This document shows positions 4,624-28,209 of a stretch of 28,209 nt of DNA, piece after piece. The notes under the pieces were generated by a model that did not search any database, had not been told where the DNA came from, and worked only from the letters and a program-made list of their open reading frames with translations. The stretch lies in the IMG/VR virus record IMGVR_UViG_3300020467_000029, positions 1 to 28,209 of that record, one strand, 5' to 3'. This DNA comes from a virus. A program made the translations under genes and the position numbers. Numbering within the stretch: position 1 is the first letter of the stretch; each line of letters starts with the position of its first letter.

Positions 4624-4961
4624 TGGATAGACGATACCCATTATCGTATCTTTTAGAGACTTTCTGTGGTTTAGATTCAAATACAAAGAATCTAAATCGC
4701 TGGAAAGCTTTACTAAGAAAATCAACTGTGCCAATAATTCTAGATAGTGGTAATTGGCTAATTAAAGAAAAAGACTTTTATAACTTCTTGAAGGGTAGGG
4801 AACATTGCTTCAAGTACGAAAAAGAAAAGATAGAAAAAGCTTATATATTCAAGGAACAGTCCAAACCCCAAACGGAAACATCAGGGTTAAACAGTCTGCA
4901 AAAACTACTAGCCGTAAAGAAGCAGAAAAACTTGCTCATGAAATCTATGGACAAATATTAG
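4623..4961 (+). CDS. Probable excisionase (winged-helix), overlapping the integrase
   Basis: The first ~60 residues look like an AlpA/Xis-type winged helix: YLLETFCGL (helix), NLNRWKALL with the usual Trp, then PIILDSGNWLIKEKDFYNFL, the wing and final helix. Such proteins bend attP/attL DNA and steer the integrase toward excision. The frame runs 112 aa to 4961, overlapping the integrase by 157 nt. The Lys-rich tail past residue ~61 is therefore read from sequence that is clearly integrase in another frame. The start is coupled to the preceding stop (TAATG). The order Xis-Int is typical of phages. Confidence 0.6.
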   Translation: MDRRYPLSYLLETFCGLDSNTKNLNRWKALLRKSTVPIILDSGNWLIKEKDFYNFLKGREHCFKYEKEKIEKAYIFKEQSKPQTETSGLNSLQKLLAVKKQKNLLMKSMDKY

Positions 4962-5821
4962 ATCAGGCATATGGACGAGGACACTCCCCAAACTATAGCT
5001 TTAGAGATGCTTCGATTGATTACCTTAATGCAAAGGAGTCAATCGACAGATCAACCGAAGCAAGAATACGATTTCTTGATCTATATTTCGGGAGTACCCG
5101 TTTGTCTGACATTAACAATGGAATGTTCAACGAAGTACTTAATAGAGTTAAGCCAGGAATCAAACCCTCTTACTTTAATAGAATCCGATCATGCCTTGTC
5201 GCAATCCTCAACTACGGCTCCAAACAAAGAAGCCCAAATATTGCCATTCAGAAAATTGAAAGACGAAAAGTAGGAAAGCCAAAACCAGTCTTTCTTCCAT
5301 ATAACGAACAAGAAAGATTAATTGATGCTTTTAACCCAATTCTCCAACCACTTATCATTTTCCTTTGCTATACAGGAGCTAGAATTGGCGAAGCCGTCTG
5401 TCTATTATGGAAGGACGTTGATATGGATAAACGGACTATCACATTCTGGGACACCAAGAACGGCGATTTTAGGTCTATCCCCATGCACGACAGAATATAC
5501 GAAAGCCTACGTTTGCTTAACAGAGAACGGGAAGGTCCAGTATTCCTATCAACTTCACTTAAGCCCTTCAGGTATTTCTATACAAGAAGTGGTAACCCTT
5601 TGGGGAAAACTCATAGTAGGGCTGTCGAAAAAGCCCTGGGTAAACATAGAAGATTTAAAGTTCACAACTGGAGATCACATTGGGCATCTACCCATGCGTT
5701 AGCTGGTATTAACGACAAGAAGCTAATGGCTCTTGGTGGTTGGAATGATACTAAATCTGTAGCCCATTATATTAAGCTAAACCCTGAACAGCTTAGAGAC
5801 GATATTAACAAAATGAAATAA
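4805..5821 (+). CDS. int: Tyrosine integrase
   Basis: The 338-aa protein carries the full tyrosine recombinase set: R193 in YTGARIGEAV, K218 in the DTKNG beta-hairpin, H287-x-x-R290 in VHNWRSHWAS, W313 in ALGGW and the nucleophile Y322 in SVAHYIK. An arm-binding N-terminal strand region (residues 1-45) and a SAM-like core-binding domain (~62-150) come first. The start is a TTG at 4805 with GGTAGGG upstream; a later start would remove the N-terminal domain. It inserts the phage into a host tRNA gene, using the attP core at 6436-6485 about 0.6 kb downstream. A short hairpin follows the stop. Confidence 0.93.
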   Translation: MLQVRKRKDRKSLYIQGTVQTPNGNIRVKQSAKTTSRKEAEKLAHEIYGQILDQAYGRGHSPNYSFRDASIDYLNAKESIDRSTEARIRFLDLYFGSTRLSDINNGMFNEVLNRVKPGIKPSYFNRIRSCLVAILNYGSKQRSPNIAIQKIERRKVGKPKPVFLPYNEQERLIDAFNPILQPLIIFLCYTGARIGEAVCLLWKDVDMDKRTITFWDTKNGDFRSIPMHDRIYESLRLLNREREGPVFLSTSLKPFRYFYTRSGNPLGKTHSRAVEKALGKHRRFKVHNWRSHWASTHALAGINDKKLMALGGWNDTKSVAHYIKLNPEQLRDDINKMK

Positions 5822-13559: not shown

Positions 13560-16500
13560 TTAAATATTCCGTCCATAATAGGGTCTGCCCAAAATAAATT
13601 TCCTCCAGGAGTAATAAAACGTGCAGATTTTGCTGTATTAGCATCTGCTTCCATTCTGATAATATCACTTGCAACTGCTCCAGCAGTAGACAAATTACTT
13701 GCTCCAGGACCAAAAATAGCTCCAAATTTAGCTCCACTTGGTATTGGCTTTTCTGTTGCACTACCAAACATTGATCTCATACCTAATTTATAATCTGATA
13801 TTTTTTCTAAACTATTGTTAACATCAGTAAACCAACCTAATGCACCACTTCTGTCTATGGCATTAATTAACTTGTCATTATAAGTATCTTTACTGTCATC
13901 TATACCATATTGGATATTTTTAATTTCATTAACTATTGCCGCAACCCCAACAAGCAAGGCTAACCCTTGCCAAAAAGCAGCATCTTTTTCTTGCAGACCA
14001 GCAGTTAAAAGGCGCACCATTGAGCCTTGTCCATAACCCTTAAACTGCGTCATTAGTGATCCAAGTTCGGTAGATGTCCATAAAGCTCTATCACCAGCTC
14101 CTGGGGTTATAATCGTTCTTTCAACTGTCTGATTTAAAGCATTTCTAAACTTTAATCGTGCAGTAGCATCAGTCCATAAATCTGTTTCAGGAAGCCATTC
14201 CCCATCTTCACGTCTTGCATGATTTTGCATTTGTAATTGCATACGTGAGTGCATCTGCTGATCTATACCATTTGCAAGAAATTTTTCTCTATCCCTTGCT
14301 GAAAGCGTAGACCAATCTTGCATTATATTTCCAGTCATACGAAGCATTATGACATTACCAGCAAACTCTTTCATAAACTGGTTCCAATAGTTTAAGCCAT
14401 TAAGCATAAAGAAAATACTAACACTTTGGTTCATGTTTCTTTCCCAAGCAAAACGACTACCAAACATATCTCCAATATCTGTAAATTGTGCAGATCGTAA
14501 TCCAAGATAAGCGTCTGCTGATATACCAGCTTGGTTTAATTCTTTTTTAGATAATTGTTTTATAACTGTTCTGGAATTTTTAAAAAAATGCCTTAAACCT
14601 TTTTCATTAGTTGCCTTTAATCCCTCAACCATAACTGTACGCATTACATCAGGAACAGAGCTAACAACGGCACTACCCATGCCCACAAGAACATTAAATG
14701 ATTTCAATGTTCTAACTGCACGACTAGATAAAGCATGAGGGTCTTTGGCAGCTCCGTATGTTCCTCTAACCCTATCTCTTAAACCTCTTATATCTCTTAA
14801 ATCATCTTGTAATTGCTTGGCTAGTTTTTGCCTCTCAGCAGTAGTGGGTGCTTGTTTTATCATGATTTCATATTCATCTGTGATTTGTTTAATTACATTA
14901 CCCATAGAAACATCGCCAAACATTCTTGTCAGTTCAATATCCACTCCCATTGTTGTTGTGTGATGTCTTAAAATAGCCTCTACATCATTTTCCAAAAAAT
15001 CAACTACAAGTCTGTCAGGTATTTCAAATGTTCTTGCTTTTGTAGATGAGGCTTGAGTTATCCAGTCAATGCTATCAACACCTTCATCTAAATTGTAATA
15101 AGGCTTACTGCGTGTAACTTGATCCATCATTTCGTTTGCAAACTTAGTAGCTTGTGCATTAGACAAACCATATTGATTTCTTGCCCAGTTTTTTACTATT
15201 TGCAAAAATGCTTGAGAATTATCCATGATTTTATCAACACGCCATATTCTAGGTAAAAACCCATCGGCAGTATTAACATTAACACCATTAGCTTGTACTC
15301 TAGCTAAATTTACTTTGGCTTGTGCCAACTGTGCTTCCAAAGCTGTTTTTGATGCTCCACTTGATTTGCTTATTTGATCTTCAAGTTTTTTGATTTGTTT
15401 TTGTAAGGCTCTTTCAAATAACTTAACTTCTGTAGCTTGTTTTTTAATAAGGTCTAAATGCTCTCTAGCCTTAGAAGCTGCACTATTAACATAAGGTGTA
15501 GCACCATCAATAACTAAATCGCCATTATTTCTTAAAGCATTAGATACTCTTTCTCTAAATTGATATTCTGTTAAACCAGTAGGTTTATTTAACCAGTCCT
15601 TACCTTTAAGTTTTAACATTTGTATTGAACGACTTATATCACCTTCTTTAGCCATAAACCCACGATAAGATAAATATTGTTCGTCCATCATTCTCATTAC
15701 ATTAACTAGGCTTGGAACATACGTTGTTCTAAACGTAGATTCTACAGATTGATCCATAGCCTCTTGTCCAGCTACTTTTTTCTGTATTAGTCCACCCATA
15801 TCAACAATTTGGCTTACAATACTTCTTACAATAGGGTTAGGGCTTTGAGTTAATCTAATAACGGGATTCCAAGGTAACTTTTCTATGCCAACTCCAGTTT
15901 CTTTTAAGGCATCTCCTTCCATTGATTGCCACATAGACTGTCTTTGTCTTTCAGGACTTACGTTAGCTCCAACTGGTTTCCATGTATTTGTTTTAACATC
16001 TTTAACTGGATTGAAAGGCTTAGACTTTGTTTTTGTTGTTACTTTTGCTGTTGGGTCTACAGATTCAGTCCATAAAACACCACCTTTGCCATCATTAAAG
16101 TAAATTCTATTACTGTATTTACCAAGAACTGCACTTAATGATCCACCAATAAGACTTGCACCAGTTAAAACAACAGCAGATTGTCCTAAAGTTCTAGTTT
16201 CAATTTGCGTTGACAATAAAAATTCTTCAGGTGCTAAAAGTGTTGCAGTAAATAAAGCACCACCAGTAAATCTTTTACCTAATCTAGCTGACCTTAATAC
16301 TTTCAAAGGAGCCAAAGGTGCAAAGATTGATGGGGTAGCAACAGTTGTAACTACTTGAGGAACCCATTGATCTGTATTTGCTAATATATTCTGATCTTCT
16401 ATATCTATTTTTAGGTTTTCTAGCCTTTGTGCCGTTTCACCACGACTACCACTATTTAAAAATCGCCAATAACTTCCTTCAAAACCTTTTAATTGTGGGT

Positions 16501-19772: not shown

Positions 19773-20216
19773 TTAACCTAAAAATTTGTATTTCTCTGGC
19801 ATTGCACTATAAGCTTCAGAGCCACTTTCCATAGCTTTGCCAACACCTGAATATATTGCCGCTTTACCTTTGGTTTTTGATGCTCTTGCACTTAGTTTGT
19901 ATTGCCTTTGCTTAGATGCACCCATTAGCTTAATCGCACCTACATCAGATTTTGCCAATCTTGTTTCTCTGCGTTTTATATTTGCCATTGATCCACCAGC
20001 ACCTACAGACACACCACCCCCAGCACTTGATGCTGATATAGAGGCAAGTTGTTCTCTTAATTGTGCCGTTCTATTTATTGCTTCCTGATCTGCTTCAATC
20101 CCAGCCATCTCAGCTTGTTCCATTGCAGCTTGAGCATCATTTGCATAAGCTTTTTGAGCCTGCCTTGCCGAAGCTAAAGACATAACAGCCGATAATGCCA
20201 TTCCTTGCCAACCCAT
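19773..20216 (-). CDS. Internal virion protein, T7 gp14-like
   Basis: The 147-aa protein starts with a hydrophobic/Ala-rich segment (MGWQGMALSAVMSLASARQA), then an Ala/Glu-rich helix (AQAAMEQAEMAGIEADQEA), a Gly/Ser loop (SSAGGGVSVGAGGSMANIKR) and a basic helical end. That pattern is common to gp14-like ejection proteins, which insert in the outer membrane and are the first to leave the virion. Its start overlaps the preceding tail tubular B stop by 1 nt. Position before the two large internal proteins supports it. Confidence 0.75.
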   Translation of the reverse strand: MGWQGMALSAVMSLASARQAQKAYANDAQAAMEQAEMAGIEADQEAINRTAQLREQLASISASSAGGGVSVGAGGSMANIKRRETRLAKSDVGAIKLMGASKQRQYKLSARASKTKGKAAIYSGVGKAMESGSEAYSAMPEKYKFLG

Positions 20217-22141
20217 TAGACTTCCACCTCTAATAATATACCATTTAACGTCATTGGTAATGGCTCCTCTTGTGTTATAGTTACTCTGCCTTCCTTAGAC
20301 CACCCAAGCAGATACACCTCTTTTCTTTGCGTTAAAGCACTTGGCTCTAATGAAAAATCATCTGTTACATTTCTTAGCAAAATTCTTGTACCTCCAGCTT
20401 TCACATTAAGTGTTGATACAAGATCAAGTACGGCTCTGACTATTCTGCGTTTCTGACCAACACTAACTCCGTCTGGTAATTGCATTTCAGGAGGTAGGGT
20501 GGTTATTTCAGGAGTATAAGCCAAACCAATTTCAACAGAAGTTACAGCTTCATCTAGTGTAACTACACCACTTCCGTTAGTTGTAAATGTTCCAAGAGAA
20601 TAATTTCCTGATCTGACCTGAACGGCAGTATTGGGCAAATGGGCTACAGTCCAGGTAGCTGTTGCACTACCAGTTTGCTGAGATGCCATATCTGTATAGT
20701 AATCGTTTTGAAATAATTCTAATGATGTAACAGTAGAACTATTAATTGTTCTCTCAACAACTGCGTATATCTGTCTGTTTACATTGGATATATTTTTAAA
20801 ATTACCCGTTGTATCATATCTAACCCAGCCTTGTACTTTTTCTTTTCTAATAGACATAAATACGGGCATATGACCATCTGAGTTAAGTAAATATAAATAA
20901 CCTTCCATTTGATCTGAAGATTCTCTTTGGGCTTCAATAGAAGTTGGTGTGCCAATAATATGCTCTGATAATAATGTAATTGAATCTGAGTTATAGGCTT
21001 GTGATATATCAGAAAATATAAATTCACGAATAGCACCTTTAGATTTGGTTAGAAAAACAATAGCACCATCAAATTCTTTTGGTTGTACTGTTCCTGATCC
21101 ATAACTTGTTTGCTTTTTAACTGTTATAGTAGAAGGAGTTAACGGCTTATTTTCAGATGTTGGAACATATAATTCTTGCTCTGATGTAAATATTGTTAAA
21201 TATCTAAATGACTGCATACCCTTTATTTCAGATACTTGTGCTTCAGCTATCTGTATCTGAATAGAATTATCATCTGCACCAGTACCTACATCAAAGTTTG
21301 TAAATTCTCCAATCTTTGACATAAATAAAAAATTAGGCAAATCCCTACTGCCACCAAATATTAACCTCTGATCGTGAAATTGAACTGTTCGTGCATATCC
21401 TCTCACAGAAGAAAATACTGGCTCTTGCCAATCTGTAATAGCAGTAGTATCAGCTATTGCTCCTGATAATGTGGCTGTTACTACTGTAGCACTTGTATAT
21501 CCACTTATTAGGGCATGACGTACTACAGAAGCTGAATCGACTAAACGTAAATACATTCCGTTATAAGCTGATGTAAAAGCATCGGCACTAGCTGTTAAAG
21601 TTACCGATCCACTTGTTCCACTAGGAGTAAGTGTTATGCTAGATGTAGCAAATTTATAATAAGGTTGAAAGCCAAGACCTGATGAAGTATCAAAGGCAAA
21701 AGCAGTAACGGCAAAGTTACTTGAGCTTGTTCTAGTTATTTTTTGCATAGCCATATCAGGGTGGGTTACAAACATTGTATCTCCACTTTGGCTTACTACT
21801 AATGATCCAATTTGTGCAGTTGCCCAAGGCATACTTGTTAAAGTCTGCAATATTGCCGTTGGATTGGAAATATCTACAATTCGTAGTTTTCCATTGCTAA
21901 ATAGAAGTAAATAGGCTTCATCTTCGTCATATATGTATGCTTCCGTCTGATAAGACTCATTTGCGAGGGTCTGAAGGTATCTAAGCCCTGGTCGCCTAGT
22001 GCAACCACCCTGAGCCTTTAACCTCACGTTACGGAGTCTGTATGCTCCATTACGATAGGCTTCGGCATCTACCCTAGATGACAAAAGAGGGGATAACTCC
22101 CCTGATGAAAAATTTGTAGTGAATTGTCTTAATAATGCCAT
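20216..22141 (-). CDS. Tail tubular protein B (nozzle)
   Basis: The 641-aa protein has the clear start of T7 gp12-like nozzle proteins: FTTNFSSGELSPLLSSRVDA followed by YRNGAYRLRNVRLKAQGGCTRRPGLRY. Beta-propeller-like repeats follow (RLIFGGSRDLPNFLFMSKIG, the family's IFGGS..P..v..S..g signature) and a C-terminal beta region. It forms the tubular tail end below the gatekeeper and holds the fibres. It sits 4 bp after tail tubular A, the standard order. Length is a little below T7 gp12 (794 aa). Confidence 0.9.
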   Translation of the reverse strand: MALLRQFTTNFSSGELSPLLSSRVDAEAYRNGAYRLRNVRLKAQGGCTRRPGLRYLQTLANESYQTEAYIYDEDEAYLLLFSNGKLRIVDISNPTAILQTLTSMPWATAQIGSLVVSQSGDTMFVTHPDMAMQKITRTSSSNFAVTAFAFDTSSGLGFQPYYKFATSSITLTPSGTSGSVTLTASADAFTSAYNGMYLRLVDSASVVRHALISGYTSATVVTATLSGAIADTTAITDWQEPVFSSVRGYARTVQFHDQRLIFGGSRDLPNFLFMSKIGEFTNFDVGTGADDNSIQIQIAEAQVSEIKGMQSFRYLTIFTSEQELYVPTSENKPLTPSTITVKKQTSYGSGTVQPKEFDGAIVFLTKSKGAIREFIFSDISQAYNSDSITLLSEHIIGTPTSIEAQRESSDQMEGYLYLLNSDGHMPVFMSIRKEKVQGWVRYDTTGNFKNISNVNRQIYAVVERTINSSTVTSLELFQNDYYTDMASQQTGSATATWTVAHLPNTAVQVRSGNYSLGTFTTNGSGVVTLDEAVTSVEIGLAYTPEITTLPPEMQLPDGVSVGQKRRIVRAVLDLVSTLNVKAGGTRILLRNVTDDFSLEPSALTQRKEVYLLGWSKEGRVTITQEEPLPMTLNGILLEVEV

Positions 22142-22145
22142 TCAT

Positions 22146-22775
22146 TCAATCCGTTGATTCCCCTTCGATCTTTGCATAAATACCTGATCCAAGTCTTATT
22201 CTATGAAATCTGCTAAGAGCAACTTGCTGTGTTGTAACTTGCTGTGCATCTCTGGCTTTGGCTCTACGAAACTGCAAATCTGCCATTTCTCTGTAAGATT
22301 TAGCAATATCTGCTTTTCGTGTAACTGATAAAGCCAAAACTGAAGCAAGGCGATATATGACCCATAAGGTAAAAGCTGGTGTCCAATATTGAGTATCAAC
22401 TCTGTAGATATAGTTTAAAACTACTGTGTCGTTTTCACTAGCATTTATGTATATGTATTTTTCATAAATATCGTATGTCTGAACTTGATCGCCAATAGTT
22501 ACAGTCTGCACTTGAATAACGGCAGGCTCTGTGGGTAGGGCATAAGCAGCGTCCCAACGATCTACTGGTACATCAGCTAATCTTGATAAGATAATCTGAC
22601 CAGTTGCGAAGTTCCAGTTATTCTGTGCAAGGCAATCTTCGACAATATCTTCATAGCTTGTATTCATAACCAATGCTTCATCTGTTGCATCGGTAAATGA
22701 TGACAAAGGCTCCATGCCCACTAAGACCATTGCTCTTTGTGCTACTTCAATATCGGTCTTTGCTGTATTTGGCAT
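22146..22775 (-). CDS. Tail tubular protein A (gatekeeper)
   Basis: The 209-aa protein fits the T7 gp11-like adaptor. It has an N-terminal helical bundle with IEVAQRAMVLVGMEPLSSF and the conserved YEDIVEDCLAQNNWNFAT segment, then a beta region (YALPTEPAVIQVQTV) and C-terminal helices (VIYRLASVLALSVT, EMADLQFRRAKARDAQ). It joins the portal to the nozzle. Its ATG overlaps the stop of the 57-aa gene by one base, so translation is coupled. Confidence 0.9.
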   Translation of the reverse strand: MPNTAKTDIEVAQRAMVLVGMEPLSSFTDATDEALVMNTSYEDIVEDCLAQNNWNFATGQIILSRLADVPVDRWDAAYALPTEPAVIQVQTVTIGDQVQTYDIYEKYIYINASENDTVVLNYIYRVDTQYWTPAFTLWVIYRLASVLALSVTRKADIAKSYREMADLQFRRAKARDAQQVTTQQVALSRFHRIRLGSGIYAKIEGESTD

Positions 22776-22948
22776 TAAAAAGGCACTTCCCCAGCTTTTG
22801 CCGCTGAACTATAATTAGTTAAAATTTGTTTCTTTAATGCTGGAGATAATTTTCTATAATCTTTTACAGATAAGCCTTGCACTTTTAAAAAACTTACAAG
22901 ACCTCTCCTATCTGTATAATCCATGCCCATAGTTTTTATTTTATTCAT
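22775..22948 (-). CDS. 57-aa protein with a KTMG motif
   Basis: This small gene is coupled on both sides: its ATG overlaps the upstream stop by one base (TAATG) and its TAA overlaps the tail tubular A start. The product begins MNKIKTMGMDYTDRRG and continues with helices (GLVSFLKVQGLSVKDYRKL, LKKQILTNYSS) to a VPF end. The opening IKTMG and the closing NY...PF resemble the 65-aa protein at 25531. Several nearby small proteins carry the same TMG tetrapeptide. Function is unknown; a virion or assembly role is likely from location. Confidence 0.75.
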   Translation of the reverse strand: MNKIKTMGMDYTDRRGLVSFLKVQGLSVKDYRKLSPALKKQILTNYSSAAKAGEVPF

Positions 22949-23445
22949 TACTTAATCTTTTTATATTCGCCAGTTGTTTTAGTTAATGTTCCAGCACCAA
23001 GAGATTTAGGTCTCATTATGTAAGCAATAAGACCAGCAGGTGTTAATAGTCTTGGAGATTTAAATACCTTTTTAATAGTTGATCCCATTGTTTTCTTTTG
23101 TTTAACATTAGGAATACCTCTATCTTTTAATGTACTTTTTGGCTTTGACTTTTTACCTTTCCATTCGGTCTGCATACCTCCTAACATTCCAGCATGAAAA
23201 GCTGCACCTCTTTCTGCAAAACCTTGACTCATTTCATCAACTTGTTGTAGTCGTTGCTCAACAGTCATGTCTTTGGTAACATCTCTTTTATTTCTCCAAA
23301 AGCCTTTATTTGGATTTGCCATGTTAACTTGTTCATTTAAAGGATTTTTTAATCCAAATTGTGTAGCTACTTTTCTACGTGAGGAACCAGGTTTATATTG
23401 TGGTGCTAAATTTTTTCGTCTTAAATCATATGTTTTTTCGTCCAT
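22948..23445 (-). CDS. Basic morphogenesis-region protein (165 aa)
   Basis: A very basic, poorly structured-looking protein (many K/R/P/N) with no membrane helix. Its C-terminal ~55 residues hold KKTMGSTIKKVFKSPRLL followed by TPAGLIAYIMRPKSLGAGTL, a segment clearly paralogous to the end of the neighbouring 172-aa protein. Proteins of this type between capsid and tail genes are candidates for DNA-contacting or ejected virion components (compare the small ejected proteins of T7). That is inference from charge and position. It ends one base into the next start. Confidence 0.75.
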   Translation of the reverse strand: MDEKTYDLRRKNLAPQYKPGSSRRKVATQFGLKNPLNEQVNMANPNKGFWRNKRDVTKDMTVEQRLQQVDEMSQGFAERGAAFHAGMLGGMQTEWKGKKSKPKSTLKDRGIPNVKQKKTMGSTIKKVFKSPRLLTPAGLIAYIMRPKSLGAGTLTKTTGEYKKIK

Positions 23446-23447
23446 AT

Positions 23448-23966
23448 CTACCTCGGAAAATTAGGATTACGATTAATATTTTTCTTTAAAGTAGCATCGC
23501 CAACTTTCTTAGGTTGCATTAAAAAGCCAACAATTCCAGGAACAGATATGTTTTTAATACCAGTCATAACTTTGCCCATTGTCTTTGCAACTTTTAATTT
23601 TTTTGTCATAATGTCTTTTTGAAAAGCTGGTTCTAATCTTTGATTCCTTTTACCAAAATTAGCTATATCTTTATTGACTTTGTTAAGTCTATTTGCAGTT
23701 TCAGAGTAATTTTTACCTGTGTTTAAACTAATTTTAGGATTAGGTTTATTAGGGTTGTTATAAACTGGTTTTCCAGTTTGATATGATTTATTAAATTGAT
23801 CTATCCTTTTGGGATAAGTTCTCTCAAAACTATATTTATAACCTCTATCTACATAGCTTCTTGAATGTATGTCAGCTTTAATTTTTTTAGATTGCAATTC
23901 TAAATTGTATTTTTTAGCAACTTTATTTCTTAAATTTGGCTTGTTGGACAATCCTTGTTGACTCAT
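23448..23966 (-). CDS. Basic morphogenesis-region protein (172 aa), paralogue of the neighbour
   Basis: A strongly basic protein rich in K, N, R and Y. It ends with KVAKTMGKVMTGIKN followed by SVPGIVGFLMQPKKVGDATL, matching the pattern TMG...P(a)GI...(L/I)M.PK..G..TL of the 165-aa neighbour. A strong AGGAGG precedes the ATG. The shared C-terminus may be a docking signal for packaging into the head or for scaffolding contacts, while the variable basic part could bind DNA. I recognise no database family. Confidence 0.75.
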   Translation of the reverse strand: MSQQGLSNKPNLRNKVAKKYNLELQSKKIKADIHSRSYVDRGYKYSFERTYPKRIDQFNKSYQTGKPVYNNPNKPNPKISLNTGKNYSETANRLNKVNKDIANFGKRNQRLEPAFQKDIMTKKLKVAKTMGKVMTGIKNISVPGIVGFLMQPKKVGDATLKKNINRNPNFPR

Positions 23967-23975
23967 ATAAACCTC

Positions 23976-24140
23976 CTATGTGTTAGGTGCGTTATATATG
24001 TTTAAGGGATCATTGGGATTGTAAGTCCTATCCTTTCCCATAGTTTCATTCTTACGATCTAACATTGCCTGATATTTTTTATGAGCCTTTATTCCTTCAG
24101 GTGTATATGGGAATTTCTTACCATCACTTGCTGTTGGCAT
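23976..24140 (-). CDS. 54-aa conserved-looking small protein
   Basis: The product starts MPTASDGKKFPYTPEGIKAH and continues KKYQAMLDRKNETMGKDRTY. The opening D.KKFPYTPEGI looks like a widespread small protein of marine podoviruses, although I cannot check this. It overlaps the upstream 46-aa gene by 17 nt in another frame, and TMG appears again. The stop is followed by the AGGAGG of the next gene. It probably belongs to the virion assembly set. Confidence 0.7.
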   Translation of the reverse strand: MPTASDGKKFPYTPEGIKAHKKYQAMLDRKNETMGKDRTYNPNDPLNIYNAPNT

Positions 24141-24264
24141 TGACCTTATCTCCTAGTTTTGCTTTGTCTCCAAATTTCACAGTATAGACTGCTCCACTTG
24201 CTGTTCTAACTGAGGAAGTAGCCTCTACGGCTACCTCCTTCTTTTTGATTGGTTTTTTAGCCAT
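24124..24264 (-). CDS. 46-aa basic small protein
   Basis: The ATG overlaps the preceding stop by one base (TAATG), so translation is coupled. The product has a Lys-rich start (MAKKPIKKKEV) and a short beta-like stretch (SGAVYTVKFGDKAKLGDKV), a pattern seen in very small capsid-associated proteins. It overlaps the next gene by 17 nt. Function is unknown. Confidence 0.6.
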   Translation of the reverse strand: MAKKPIKKKEVAVEATSSVRTASGAVYTVKFGDKAKLGDKVNANSK

Positions 24265-24524
24265 TATCTACTATCCGTAGTCATGCTGACTATATCTCCA
24301 GTATCAACAACAGAGCCGTTATTACTGAGGACAGTACACATACCAAAACCATTAGATGCGTAGATAAAAATAACATCGCCAACATTCATTTCGTTGACCA
24401 TGCTATTAAAATACCCTTCAGCATCAATAGTGTTAAGTGCATCGCCACTACTTTTATAGTGCCAAATATGGAACCCATTACCTGAATAGGAAACCAAACT
24501 TAAATCTGACTGAACAAACGCCAT
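24264..24524 (-). CDS. Small virion protein candidate after the capsid gene (86 aa)
   Basis: A compact beta-rich domain: MAFVQSDLSLVSYSGNGFHI, WHYKS, GYFNSMVNEMNVGDVIFIY, then ASNGFGMCTVLSNN and a Ser/Thr tail. The gene directly follows the major capsid gene (9 bp apart) with a good GGAGG. A gene in this place encodes a decoration, cement or head-fibre protein in many phages, so that role is inferred. The fold looks like a small SH3/OB-like barrel. I am unsure of the family. Confidence 0.7.
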   Translation of the reverse strand: MAFVQSDLSLVSYSGNGFHIWHYKSSGDALNTIDAEGYFNSMVNEMNVGDVIFIYASNGFGMCTVLSNNGSVVDTGDIVSMTTDSR

Positions 24525-24533
24525 GTTTACCTC

Positions 24534-25373
24534 CTAATTCTTAAGTTCTAATTCAAATACACCTTCAGCATCAATTAAGACTGAGTTCTGTTGCATTTTG
24601 TTTAATACAAAATAACTGTCCTTATCGTTGTGATATTGCATATTTGAGGTTATATCTGACCCTATTGCATGGGCAATAGCATCTGAATGGTAAGCAAAAC
24701 ACTCTTTATGAGTAGTTCCTGCCGCTCCTGATCCGTTCATTCCAGATAGACCTGAATGTGGAAACCACATAAAGCCTAACCATCTCTTGGCAGTCATGCC
24801 AGTAGGGAAAGGAAGATCATTTTCGCCAACATATTCAGCTCTTGAGAATTGGTCTATAGCCATTAGCTGTGACCATTGTTCCCAACCGACAACACAGTAT
24901 CTTCTGCCATCGTCTGGAACTTCGTTGTTACCGAACTTTTCCATTAACTCTAAACACCAAGTTAATGTAATGCCGTTAGAAGTTTCATCATGCGCTGATG
25001 TTGTTGTTGTCAACTGATTGATAATTAACTCATCAGTTTTACGTCCAAGTGCATACGCACCTGACTGTTGAGCTACCATCATTTCATCATGGTTAATTCT
25101 TAACTGATCTAGGTCATCAACCCATTCACCAGCGAAGTAATCTTCCAATGTGACATTGACGTTAGTGTGTGCAAGATTCATAGGTGCTATCGAACCCTGT
25201 CTTGCCTTAGTCGTAGCAAATCCTTTACCGATTTTTTGAAATGTAGTTTTGTTTTTAACTCCATTTCTTGTTCGAACTGTGTTTCTAAGCTTAGAACCCA
25301 TTCTCTGGTAAGCCATGTGAACCCCAGACTCGAACTCCTCAATAAAGGAGGTGCTTATGGTTGGTAAAGCCAT
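24534..25373 (-). CDS. Major capsid protein
   Basis: The 279-aa protein stands after scaffold and before the tail genes, the usual capsid slot. It opens with TSFIEEFESGVHMAYQRMGS and holds conserved-looking capsid blocks: LEDYFAGEWVDDLDQLRIN, the helix AYALGRKTDELIINQL, RRYCVVGWEQWSQL, the loop GMTAKRWLGFMWFPHSGL, and a C-terminal FVLNKMQQNSVLIDAEGVFE. HK97-fold capsid proteins of small podoviruses look like this. No N-terminal delta domain is evident, which fits the presence of a separate scaffold. ACGGAGG is ahead of the ATG. Confidence 0.88.
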   Translation of the reverse strand: MALPTISTSFIEEFESGVHMAYQRMGSKLRNTVRTRNGVKNKTTFQKIGKGFATTKARQGSIAPMNLAHTNVNVTLEDYFAGEWVDDLDQLRINHDEMMVAQQSGAYALGRKTDELIINQLTTTTSAHDETSNGITLTWCLELMEKFGNNEVPDDGRRYCVVGWEQWSQLMAIDQFSRAEYVGENDLPFPTGMTAKRWLGFMWFPHSGLSGMNGSGAAGTTHKECFAYHSDAIAHAIGSDITSNMQYHNDKDSYFVLNKMQQNSVLIDAEGVFELELKN

Positions 25374-25514
25374 TTAAGCCTCCGTTAGAAAGTTAAAATT
25401 TACTACTATTCTGGTTGTTCGCTTACCTACTATGTTGAAGTTGTTCCAAATTTGGGCTTCTAAGTAAGATGGACGAGCCTTCTAGCAATTCTAATCTTTC
25501 AGAAAACGAAAACT

Positions 25515-25533
25515 TTGTTAATTCACATTACTA
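25515..25533 (-). promoter_or_regulatory. Late promoter candidate ahead of the capsid gene (motif copy A)
   Basis: On the - strand, TAGTAATGTGAATTAACAA lies in the 157-bp gap before the major capsid gene, starting at the stop codon of the 65-aa gene. It recurs at 13541-13559 with one mismatch. T7-like phages often place a promoter before the capsid gene. The gap (25374-25530) otherwise holds only the capsid ribosome-binding site. Confidence 0.4.
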
Positions 25534-25728
25534 AAAGGGTAATTGGCTTTTTAAATAATTTTTATAATTTTCAATTACTAAATGTTTTCTTTTGGGGTCT
25601 TTTAAAAAGTTATCAAATTCATTTGGCGTAAGAATATTTTCTTCTTTTGTCATATAATCTCTAAAGCCACTATCTGAATAAGCAGTTTTCTTAAAACCCA
25701 TAGTTTTAGGTTTCTTTATTGTCCTCAT
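25531..25728 (-). CDS. 65-aa basic protein with a KTMG motif
   Basis: It overlaps the scaffold stop by 4 nt (ATGA). The product starts MRTIKKPKTMGFKKTAY and has helical segments (TPNEFDNFLKDPKRK, HLVIENYKNYLKSQ) and ends in LPF. Its layout (M..IK..KTMG at the start; NY...PF at the end) resembles the 57-aa protein beside tail tubular A, suggesting duplication. Location between scaffold and capsid points to a head assembly role, but no family is recognised. Confidence 0.72.
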   Translation of the reverse strand: MRTIKKPKTMGFKKTAYSDSGFRDYMTKEENILTPNEFDNFLKDPKRKHLVIENYKNYLKSQLPF

Positions 25729-26513
25729 GCACGTTTCCTAGCAAGTTGAGTTGCCATTGCTCTGACTTTAGCAACATAGGCTGGGTCTCCACCATTTTTC
25801 CAATATTTAGGATCAGCTTGTGCAGACTGTAAATCCTCTTTTGTAACAGTTTCCTGAAACTCTGTAGGAGAAGTCATGTTAAACTTTGGCTGTCCATTTA
25901 ACTGCATGATTTCTTCAAAGGCTTGTACCATTCCAGCAGTAGCTGGTATCGATGCAAACACCTTATAAGCATCTTCAGATAAAGATGAACTTGCCCAAGT
26001 ATCAACACGTTCTAAACGTCTGTCTGCGTGTTCACCCAATATTTGGCTTTCTTCATTCCAGTCAGGACCTGACATAGCTTGCATATTTGTATATTCGGTT
26101 ACAAACTCTCCAAACTCATCATTAGTTAAAGCCATACTATGAGCTTTATCCCTAAACCAACTAAGCATAGGATCATCTTGATTGATCTCAATAGGATTAC
26201 CTTCTTCATCAGATAATTCTAAAGTATAATCCCCTGGACTTACTGGAACCTCTTTGGCAGCTTCTTCATTAAGTTCGCCCACAAGTTCTTGCTTGATTTC
26301 ATCACGCCTTGTATGAAATTTGTTTTCCAAATTCTTATAAGACGTAGCCAGTTGCTCGGGTGTTTCAAATTTACTTGGGAGCCAGTCAGGTCTTTCGACT
26401 TCATTTTGCTCCCCTGAGTCTTGGGAGATTGTGCTTTCGACATTGACCTCTTTGACTTCTTCTTGTTGATTGGTGCTTTCATTGCTTTCTGTAGTTGTTT
26501 GTTCATCAGACAT
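25725..26513 (-). CDS. Capsid scaffolding protein
   Basis: The 262-aa protein is strongly acidic at the N-terminus (Glu/Gln/Ser/Thr-rich, low complexity), has helical centre segments, then a mixed C-terminus with a basic end (YVAKVRAMATQLARKRA). An acidic disordered start plus helical body and basic C-terminal tail is the standard build of scaffolding proteins, whose basic tail binds the inside of the capsid shell. The order portal, scaffold, capsid agrees. DWLPSKFETPEQLATSYKNL resembles the conserved W.P.kF.t.e.l..aY..Le segment of such proteins. Confidence 0.88.
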   Translation of the reverse strand: MSDEQTTTESNESTNQQEEVKEVNVESTISQDSGEQNEVERPDWLPSKFETPEQLATSYKNLENKFHTRRDEIKQELVGELNEEAAKEVPVSPGDYTLELSDEEGNPIEINQDDPMLSWFRDKAHSMALTNDEFGEFVTEYTNMQAMSGPDWNEESQILGEHADRRLERVDTWASSSLSEDAYKVFASIPATAGMVQAFEEIMQLNGQPKFNMTSPTEFQETVTKEDLQSAQADPKYWKNGGDPAYVAKVRAMATQLARKRA

Positions 26514-26522
26514 ATTAACTCC

Positions 26523-26783
26523 TTATTGTCCTTGTTTACGTCCCATTTCAGTTCTATGTTTCATTAGGGCTACGACCCATCTCTGACCTTCAAAGTGAGC
26601 AAGACTTTCAATTCCCAATCCCGCACCGTGAATGTTATTTGTTGTAATGTTTTCCAAATACTGAAGGAAAGATTTGCCAATGCCCGAACCAAAAAGAGCA
26701 TGGGCTTTACTATTAAGATCAGCTTCAACTTCAGTAGTGTACGACCTACCATCGACTGAGGCATTTATTTTCTCCTTTGTCAT
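26523..26783 (-). CDS. Bbp19-like small head protein
   Basis: The 86-aa product has the pattern FGSGIGKSFLQYLENIT (residues 31-47) and later LAHFEGQRWVVALMKHR (61-77). This resembles Bbp19-type phage proteins, which show F.t..G...L..L and a closing eG.R.vv..i segment. They are encoded between portal and scaffold in many podoviruses and are thought to be virion-associated. The portal stop overlaps its start by 4 nt (ATGA). The identification is by eye and moderate. Confidence 0.6.
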   Translation of the reverse strand: MTKEKINASVDGRSYTTEVEADLNSKAHALFGSGIGKSFLQYLENITTNNIHGAGLGIESLAHFEGQRWVVALMKHRTEMGRKQGQ

Positions 26784-28209
26784 TGTCCTAGAGTTCCTTG
26801 TTGTTGCTGTTGCATTAACTGCATAGCCATATCAATGTTCCCTTGTACTTCTTGCCGTGAAGCAAGTAGTTCTTCTTTAACACCAAACTTTGATGCCAAA
26901 TACTTAATAACCTTTTCTTGATTATATAAAGCTGGAGTAATCTCTGGTCCGAATGTACCAGCTACTGTTTGCTGAAATCTTACAAAGTCTGCTACGTCTT
27001 GTTGATCTTGCGCCCTTAATAACGGAGATACTGGAACAATCCTTATTTCTCTGCCGTCAACTTTTGGTATATCAAGTAAACCTTGTTCTTTATAAATAGA
27101 TACAATTCTTTCAACCAATGGGTGCAAAAATTCTTTCTGCATACGACCTGCAACTGCTCCCATATCTCTTGCCACGTCAGCAAGCCTTTCTGAAACTTCT
27201 GTTGCTGATAATGGTGTTTTTGCATTTGGTCTTGAATCAAGTTCATCAATAAAAAGAGCCTTCCTGACATTTCTTCTCATATCTTCCAAGATTAATTGCC
27301 CAACATCAAATCTTGCTGGACTTTGTAATGATTCTAAACTAGAGCCAGGGGAACGTGGTATAAATGTTCCTGGCTGAATAGTTATGTTGTCAGGATTAAA
27401 TACTCCGTCATCATCATAGACATAAGCACCACCTATAGCCATTTCTGCATTTTCAAGTATTAACTGTACTGTAAGATTCAAAGTTTTAATTGCTGGCATG
27501 GCTTGTAGTATCGGACCTCTACCCCAAACCTCCATACCTGATTTAGACCATCTAGTAGTTAACCATGGCAAACTACCACGACCTACAAGTTTCTTTTTAA
27601 ATAAAACGTGTTTGTCAGTTTCTGAAATTAAATAATAAGTAAATTCATCTTTAAACTGATCGTCACTATCATACATAGTTGCTTCAACTAATTTAGTCTT
27701 ACGTCTAGGATCACGTTTTTGAGCATTAACCATTTCAGGAGAATACTTTGCTTGAGGATAACGAAGTTTAATATCTGTAATATCACATTCGTTATTCCAT
27801 CTAAACCAGTCAGTTACCATATCCATAGCACCTGATAATAAAGCTATGTTAGTAGGTGGTACGGCAGTAAAATGGAGATCGCCAACAAATCGACCAGACT
27901 CAACAAGCATATTCATAGTGCCTATGCCCAAGTCTTGTAAGCCTTCATGGAACTCTGAGTTAAAATTACTGTTACGCAATCCCTCATGTAACAACTCTGT
28001 TATATCATCAAGCTCTTTTAAAAGCTGATTTGAGATCATGTCGGAGGGGTATTCAGGACCTGGAGCCAGTTTAAATGCTCGACCATTTGGAGGAAAAAAG
28101 CCAAGCTGAAGCCTTGAGGCAAATCTAGGTAGCCCAGTTACTGCCGTTTCGTCATATATATTTTCTGTACGTCTTTGACCAGCAAATTCTCCAAAAAAGC
28201 TTTCTCTAT
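26780..28209 (-). CDS. Portal (head-tail connector) protein, 5' end beyond the window
   Basis: The frame stays open past the internal ATG at 28039 to the right edge, with protein-like sequence (FFGEFAGQRRTENIYDETAV, then RFASRLQLGFFPPNGRAF), so the gene is partial with about 475 residues visible. Portal features include VAPPTNIALLSGAMDMVTDW-like wing segments, SKSGMEVWGRGPILQAMPAI, then LNLTVQLILENAEMAIGGAY, and the late PLSATEVSERLADVARDMG and QKEFLHPLVERIVSIY helices, all typical of the T7 gp8-like head-tail connector family. It forms the 12-mer through which DNA is packaged and ejected. The Gln-rich end (MQQQQQGTLGQ) is common in the family. Confidence 0.9.
   Translation of the reverse strand, partial: RESFFGEFAGQRRTENIYDETAVTGLPRFASRLQLGFFPPNGRAFKLAPGPEYPSDMISNQLLKELDDITELLHEGLRNSNFNSEFHEGLQDLGIGTMNMLVESGRFVGDLHFTAVPPTNIALLSGAMDMVTDWFRWNNECDITDIKLRYPQAKYSPEMVNAQKRDPRRKTKLVEATMYDSDDQFKDEFTYYLISETDKHVLFKKKLVGRGSLPWLTTRWSKSGMEVWGRGPILQAMPAIKTLNLTVQLILENAEMAIGGAYVYDDDGVFNPDNITIQPGTFIPRSPGSSLESLQSPARFDVGQLILEDMRRNVRKALFIDELDSRPNAKTPLSATEVSERLADVARDMGAVAGRMQKEFLHPLVERIVSIYKEQGLLDIPKVDGREIRIVPVSPLLRAQDQQDVADFVRFQQTVAGTFGPEITPALYNQEKVIKYLASKFGVKEELLASRQEVQGNIDMAMQLMQQQQQGTLGQ

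Follow-up and report, generated by a model that had tools for sequence, protein, structure and literature searches.

Why should several small proteins encoded among the head and tail genes of one virus share the same few residues? The question is raised by a 28.2-kb viral window (IMG/VR record IMGVR_UViG_3300020467_000029, positions 1 to 28,209; 'the window' denotes this whole stretch), the minus strand of which carries a T7-like, pelagiphage-like head-tail module. The original prediction was that a [KE]TMG tetrapeptide in five otherwise unlike small basic proteins of this module is a shared docking or sorting signal. In the relatives of this virus, a group of marine bacteriophages, a protein-level, clade-specific short motif is found on many small head-module proteins, in close to half of their families. 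Judged from the sequences, this tag probably acts as an address label that docks small proteins into the virus particle; its carriers are small, mostly basic and probably disordered proteins of the head module.

All five proteins are present, all are encoded on the minus strand, and each contains a single copy of TMG. They are small and basic, with isoelectric points (pI) of 9.3-10.5. Lengths below are in amino acids (aa), and the family handles (c27 and so on) come from the clustering described further on.

22775..22948, minus strand: 57-aa basic protein (c27), IKTMG close to the N-terminus, NY...PF end
22925..22936, minus strand: KTMG codons of the 57-aa protein
22948..23445, minus strand: 165-aa basic protein (c28), KKTMG, with KTMG ahead of a hydrophobic C-terminal segment
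23083..23094, minus strand: KTMG codons of the 165-aa protein
23448..23966, minus strand: 172-aa basic protein (c28), AKTMG
23574..23585, minus strand: KTMG codons of the 172-aa protein
23976..24140, minus strand: 54-aa protein (c29), NETMG flanked by exchangeable N- and C-terminal modules
24036..24047, minus strand: ETMG codons of the 54-aa protein
25531..25728, minus strand: 65-aa protein (c31), PKTMG, with a fixed N-terminus MRTIKKPKTMG and a C-terminal part that differs among relatives
25696..25707, minus strand: KTMG codons of the 65-aa protein

A sixth TMG among the window genes occurs only in the 1066-aa gp16-like protein, at 14953; short frames at 114 and 6417 hold two more. When the five proteins were shuffled, a mean of 0.085 proteins contained TMG, and the probability of at least three was 5e-6. 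When every tripeptide is counted and not TMG alone, 0.8% of shuffles have one that is shared by five of the eight small head open reading frames (ORFs). The five are not all independent of each other. The 165- and 172-aa proteins have a homologous 44-residue C-terminal segment (E=4e-5) and, by sequence, are paralogues. The 57-aa protein resembles the 65-aa family over its full length, though weakly (27% against the protein from L007), and it escaped detection by a profile of the 65-aa proteins; these two are probably distant relatives, and their matching NY...PF ends are real. The description 'otherwise unlike' thus does not fit all of them, and the five cases amount to about three groups. Pfam and PHROGs searches with the five proteins returned nothing useful. 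By itself, the window is suggestive as to TMG sharing; it is the relatives that make the case decisive.

Relatives were collected by a capsid-protein search. It recovered 53 loci with 73-95% identity, here called clade A, and a sister group at around 50%. When a distant clade A member served as query, the hits were again the clade A contigs, followed by a drop to 52%; within the collection searched, clade A therefore has a clear boundary. The sample was enlarged by twenty longer stretches belonging to 15 of the contigs. A simple ORF picker supplied the genes, which BLAST then grouped, and the small head-module set came to 335 ORFs in 38 clusters (families). A scan of IMG/VR for KKPKTMG hit 34 contigs, about half to two thirds of them belonging to clade A; the other contigs in that scan look like chance or unrelated Lys-rich ORFs.

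In clade A the motif widens. TMG itself is real, but the true motif is the broader [KR][TSKN]MG rather than [KE]TMG, and a good many further small proteins of the relatives have it: 17 of the 38 small head-module families are carriers. Merging suspected relatives and taking a single member from each family leaves 36 families, about 13.4 of which have the motif, against a shuffle mean of 0.5 and a maximum of 4; the runner-up dipeptide following [KR][TSKN] reaches 7 families. In an unbiased scan, KTMG is the tetrapeptide ranked first by family count (7 vs 0.45 expected), with RSMG second. Reversed or substituted control motifs (GM, LG, IG, FG, MA, MS, MK) are at or below expectation by the same count. 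The density of [KR][TSKN]MG is 4.09 per 1000 aa in small head proteins and 0.13 elsewhere in the same genomes. The check proposed with the original prediction, a count of TMG in the remaining proteome, gives the same picture: TMG is strongly enriched in small head proteins (1.54 per 1000 aa) and rare elsewhere (0.16).

Homologues keep the motif, as the original prediction required. In the c28 family (the 172- and 165-aa proteins and six others, eight aligned members at 21-42% identity), only M1 and TMG are invariant, and every full-length member has the motif. In c29, MG is present in 33 of 34 distinct proteins, and M and G are the most conserved columns (0.97), while the parts on either side interchange: DGKxFPYT.., CxxCPTPxKC.. 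or almost nothing at the N-terminus, and LTAKQKxLP.., KTESPYNKLRSDNAPNT, PRHANPNHPMN.. or nothing at the C-terminus. The c31 proteins (7 of 7 with the motif) have a fixed start, MRT[IV]KKPK[TS]MG, followed by unrelated remainders. In c36, the product of the gene before the portal, MG lies near the C-terminus at variable spacing in 19 of 19 distinct clade A proteins. Enrichment and conservation together support well the idea of a shared protein-level signal on small head-module proteins.

Outside clade A the motif largely vanishes. There is no [KR][TSKN]MG in 25,480 aa of sister-clade small ORFs (approximately 50% capsid identity), and further loci, amounting to 11,673 aa, lack it as well; small head-module ORFs are fewer in the sister phages than in clade A. 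Most outgroup homologues of the clade A carriers lack it. HTVC022P has MPMGKGTYGSKKGRPSNKLKGGQ and L027 has MPMGPGTYGSKKGRPPKKKSKTMGKPSLTAAQ, with KTMG inserted in the latter. The c37 proteins of HTVC168P, HTVC022P and a cyanophage read AKRGLYANI against AKKMGLYANI in clade A, and outgroup MAKRGLYANI corresponds to clade A MVAKKMGLYANI. Homologues of c44 have CGRSKGEKR, CGRKSASGSKR or CGRQKGEKR in place of CGR[KTSN]MGDGR, and those of c43 in CRP-2 and C72C1 have EYKKRGGKY and EYKRRGGTW in place of QYKKMGGKY. The exception is the c43 homologue of DSL-LC04, which has MG (EYKAMGGGW). As a separate observation, Lys-Met-Gly-rich small proteins with several K.MG repeats lie near structural genes in CRP-2 (L180:1106-1420) and DSL-LC04 (L182:1181-1408).

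The pre-portal protein retains a related ending in other groups. In the sister clade it mostly ends in TLGA or TLGV, in some cases in LLG and in a few in neither; in HTVC203P and HTVC024P it ends in TLLG. A second, longer protein in these two phages ends in SLLG, and the one in HTVC203P matches the same phrog_831 C-terminal region. The proteins concerned, HTVC203P gp59 and gp60 (L139:32167-33010) and HTVC024P gp58 and gp60 (L143:17381-18501), have a common C-terminal GRxxxI[LM]T...[TS]LLG, and these neighbouring pre-portal pairs form a second lineage sharing an end tag. A PDB sequence search with the HTVC203P pre-portal protein gave nothing useful.

Could the conserved entity be something other than a protein tag? 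A signal in the nucleotides, such as a phage promoter, an internal start codon or a ribosome site containing ACNATGGG, would account for an exact DNA word, AAAACTATGGG, that is found twice with its ATG. Yet the Gly, Thr and Lys/Arg codons of the motif vary as in the background, third-codon bases vary, and the sites lie nearly all on the coding strand (ACNATGGG occurs 54 times forward and 5 times in reverse). A Shine-Dalgarno-like sequence precedes just 1 of 106 motif ATGs, as compared with 157 of 325 gene starts. Codon variation, strand bias and the near-absence of ribosome sites mean that selection is on the peptide, and a nucleotide-level explanation is extremely improbable. The codon variation and the strand bias likewise rule out a T7-promoter-like DNA motif (ACTATGGG), and the scarcity of ribosome sites rules out internal translation starts; the short ORFs of c44 begin with GTG and are full-length genes. 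A role as Shine-Dalgarno sequence of the next gene is possible for the C-terminal carriers c36 and c43 only, and not for the other families. At the protein level, shared ancestry might suffice, the motif being a relic spread by duplication or recombination from a few KTMG-bearing ancestors. The 165/172-aa paralogues, the probable kinship of the 57- and 65-aa proteins and the clear recombination of c29 modules all fit such a history. However, c43 and c44 (DUF5872-type), c37, the LTAKQK-type c29 and c36 have their own outgroup homologues, mostly without MG, while the clade A members have it, and a relic would not be the sole invariant feature at 21-42% identity. Ancestry alone is quite improbable, and kinship within the two window pairs as the whole explanation is ruled out by the other motif families.

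Contact with nucleic acid is another way in which Lys-rich, DNA-condensing proteins could come to share a basic residue and a compact Met-Gly turn. The carriers are basic, the neighbours of the tag are Lys-rich, and small Lys-Met-Gly-rich proteins occur near head or adaptor genes in other aquatic phages (DSL-LC04, CRP-2). It is nevertheless Met-Gly that is invariant and not the basic residues, a hydrophobic-Gly pair (TLG/LLG) substitutes for it in the pre-portal protein, and the motif is missing from Lys-rich head proteins in sister phages and from most outgroup homologues; this explanation is unlikely. The motif might also be a site at which, as the particle matures, a phage or host protease cuts small head proteins after Gly. 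Removal of targeting sequences by T4 gp21 is a precedent for such processing, the c31 tag forms an 11-residue N-terminal leader with changing cargo, and a candidate enzyme exists. This is c35, encoded between the terminase and the pre-portal gene in those clade A head modules that reach far enough (130-145 aa, with invariant His28 and Cys92; for example L004:1365-1784, 139 aa). Its structural model is confident, with a predicted local distance difference test score (pLDDT) of 84, and its best structural matches are both permuted NlpC/P60-like: YiiX (Z 7.7 over 119 residues) and the B. cereus cysteine peptidase 3kw0 (Z 6.9 over 113). The next unrelated match has Z 4.3; values under 8 are middling, and the Foldseek E in PDB is above 1 for both. 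On this model c35 is possibly a cysteine protease or amidase of the head module. A cut in c36 or c43 would, however, take off just 3-11 C-terminal residues, the residues following Gly vary, and the fold match is itself middling. A link between c35 and the motif by co-occurrence fails as well, since c35 is also present in loci without MG (the sister loci L074, L080-L082, L171 and L175). Cleavage is unlikely.

The preferred reading is that [KR][TSKN]MG is a clade-specific docking motif which brings small proteins to one virion component; on the sequence evidence, the chances for and against it in this specific form are about evenly balanced. One shared site on that component would read the motif, so that a changing set of small proteins would all be brought to one location as the particle is assembled. 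The most promising candidate is the seat taken by the C-terminal tail of the gp7.3-like protein, whose gene lies immediately ahead of the portal gene, because this pre-portal protein ends in the same motif in clade A without exception. Accessory proteins could occupy that seat too, touch the packaged DNA through their basic regions and perhaps exit with it. In a more general version, unrelated small proteins, old widespread families included, would each have acquired [KR]xMG for loading at a single place in the virion, which may be the portal-tail channel, and for delivery with the DNA, the tag drifting between clades (MG, TLG, LLG) along with its receptor; this extension is doubtful.

Several known systems offer points of comparison. 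In T7, gp7.3 is anchored to the nozzle gp12 through its C-terminal loop, and the basic N-terminal part lies around the end of the DNA within the channel; gp6.7 and gp7.3 exit together with core proteins (PMC11784390). The clade A pre-portal protein is comparable to gp7.3/gp6.7 in size, in its position before the portal and in basic character. It differs in always ending in the motif, and no T7 counterparts were found for the accessory carriers. In T-even phages, the internal proteins form a highly diverse set in which only the capsid targeting sequence (CTS) is conserved (PMC3012670). As with the T4 CTS on internal proteins IPI-III, one short conserved tag is placed on diverse small proteins encoded with head genes, and by analogy the CTS may be regarded as a functional counterpart of the clade A tag. 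The latter comprises four residues, belongs to a T7-like head and does not keep to the N-terminal location of the CTS: it is N-terminal in c31, c27, c37 and c66 only, in the middle in c29 and c44, and C-terminal in c36 and c43. The phrog_831 pre-portal proteins of HTVC010P-type pelagiphages are small, occupy the same gene position and have a C-terminal hydrophobic-Gly tag that a second, longer protein also carries; here it is Leu-Leu-Gly in place of Met-Gly, and it is limited to two proteins. Finally, the carriers c43 and c44 belong to or resemble DUF5872 (c43 matches the profile with 40.4 bits, against a curated cut-off of 27.5), a family that, like DUF6321, is found in marine phages and large DNA viruses. 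A DUF6321 protein, c38, adjoins them; most outgroup members seen lack MG.

A number of points weigh against docking at a single site. The presence of the carriers in virions is a prediction, and some docking motifs would not tolerate such variation in position. Several motif families consist of a single metagenomic ORF predicted by a simple caller, and a few families may be distant homologues of others and yet have been counted separately. T7 gp7.3 itself has no [ML]G end motif, and c36 has no PHROG match to phrog_831 and no significant match to gp7.3, which leaves position and general protein features as the basis for a link to the nozzle; the HTVC pre-portal counterparts by position do match phrog_831. 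For the 172-aa protein, AlphaFold gives a low-confidence model (pLDDT 56) that is uninformative on any site.

Marine phages encode many tiny basic head-module proteins without an assigned function. A shared tag hints at which of them act together and predicts which are virion proteins. Should it prove to serve in loading, these T7-like phages would have their own equivalent of the T4 targeting sequence.

The families c38, c43 and c44 (DUF6321, DUF5872 and related small proteins) adjoin each other upstream of the scaffold gene in L007, L008, L009, L021 and others. With the PHROG profiles 727, 3477, 11180 and 28131, several of them align to separate stretches of a single long profile, which suggests that other phages have such proteins in fused form.

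The head-tail module of the window runs, portal side first, from the truncated portal through an 86-aa protein, the scaffold, the 65-aa protein and the major capsid protein to another 86-aa protein, the 46-aa, 54-aa, 172-aa, 165-aa and 57-aa proteins and a gp11-like adaptor, followed by a gp12-like nozzle and gp14-like and gp16-like internal proteins. The pre-portal gene, the product of which has the conserved C-terminal motif in relatives, falls outside the window contig, past the portal, and c35 is missing from the window for the same reason. The main features other than the five tagged proteins are as follows.

26780..28209, minus strand: portal, cut off by the contig end
26523..26783, minus strand: 86-aa protein (c33) between portal and scaffold, ending HRTEMGRKQGQ
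25725..26513, minus strand: scaffold (Phage_T7_Capsid assembly family)
24534..25373, minus strand: major capsid protein (Phage_capsid_2 / phrog_3437), the anchor for collecting relatives
22146..22775, minus strand: tail tubular A-like adaptor (gp11-like, phrog_394)
20216..22141, minus strand: tail tubular B-like nozzle (gp12-like, phrog_376), which the analogy to T7 gp7.3 makes one candidate docking partner
19773-20216: gp14-like protein
14945-14953: TMG-containing stretch of the gp16-like internal protein

Considered as a further carrier, c33 is marginal at best: fewer than half of its clade A homologues have MG, with LG, KG or QG in the others and KG in the sister clade. The gp16-like stretch, [RK][HN]H[TV][TK]TMG[VMT]DIE, is conserved in many clade A genomes (the window, L085, L090, L094, L095, L097, L098, L100 and L101). 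Its KTMG is probably a structural coincidence, although the small proteins could mimic it. A further element, I[KR][LF]MG, recurs in the gp14-like protein of clade A and of some sister-clade loci.

By capsid protein, the closest named phage is Pelagibacter phage EXVC031P Hodr (48%), and the window virus is therefore pelagiphage-like. The window also encodes an endolysin and, at 4805-5821, an integrase (phrog_1), the presence of which within a T7-like, pelagiphage-like genome points to a temperate lifestyle.

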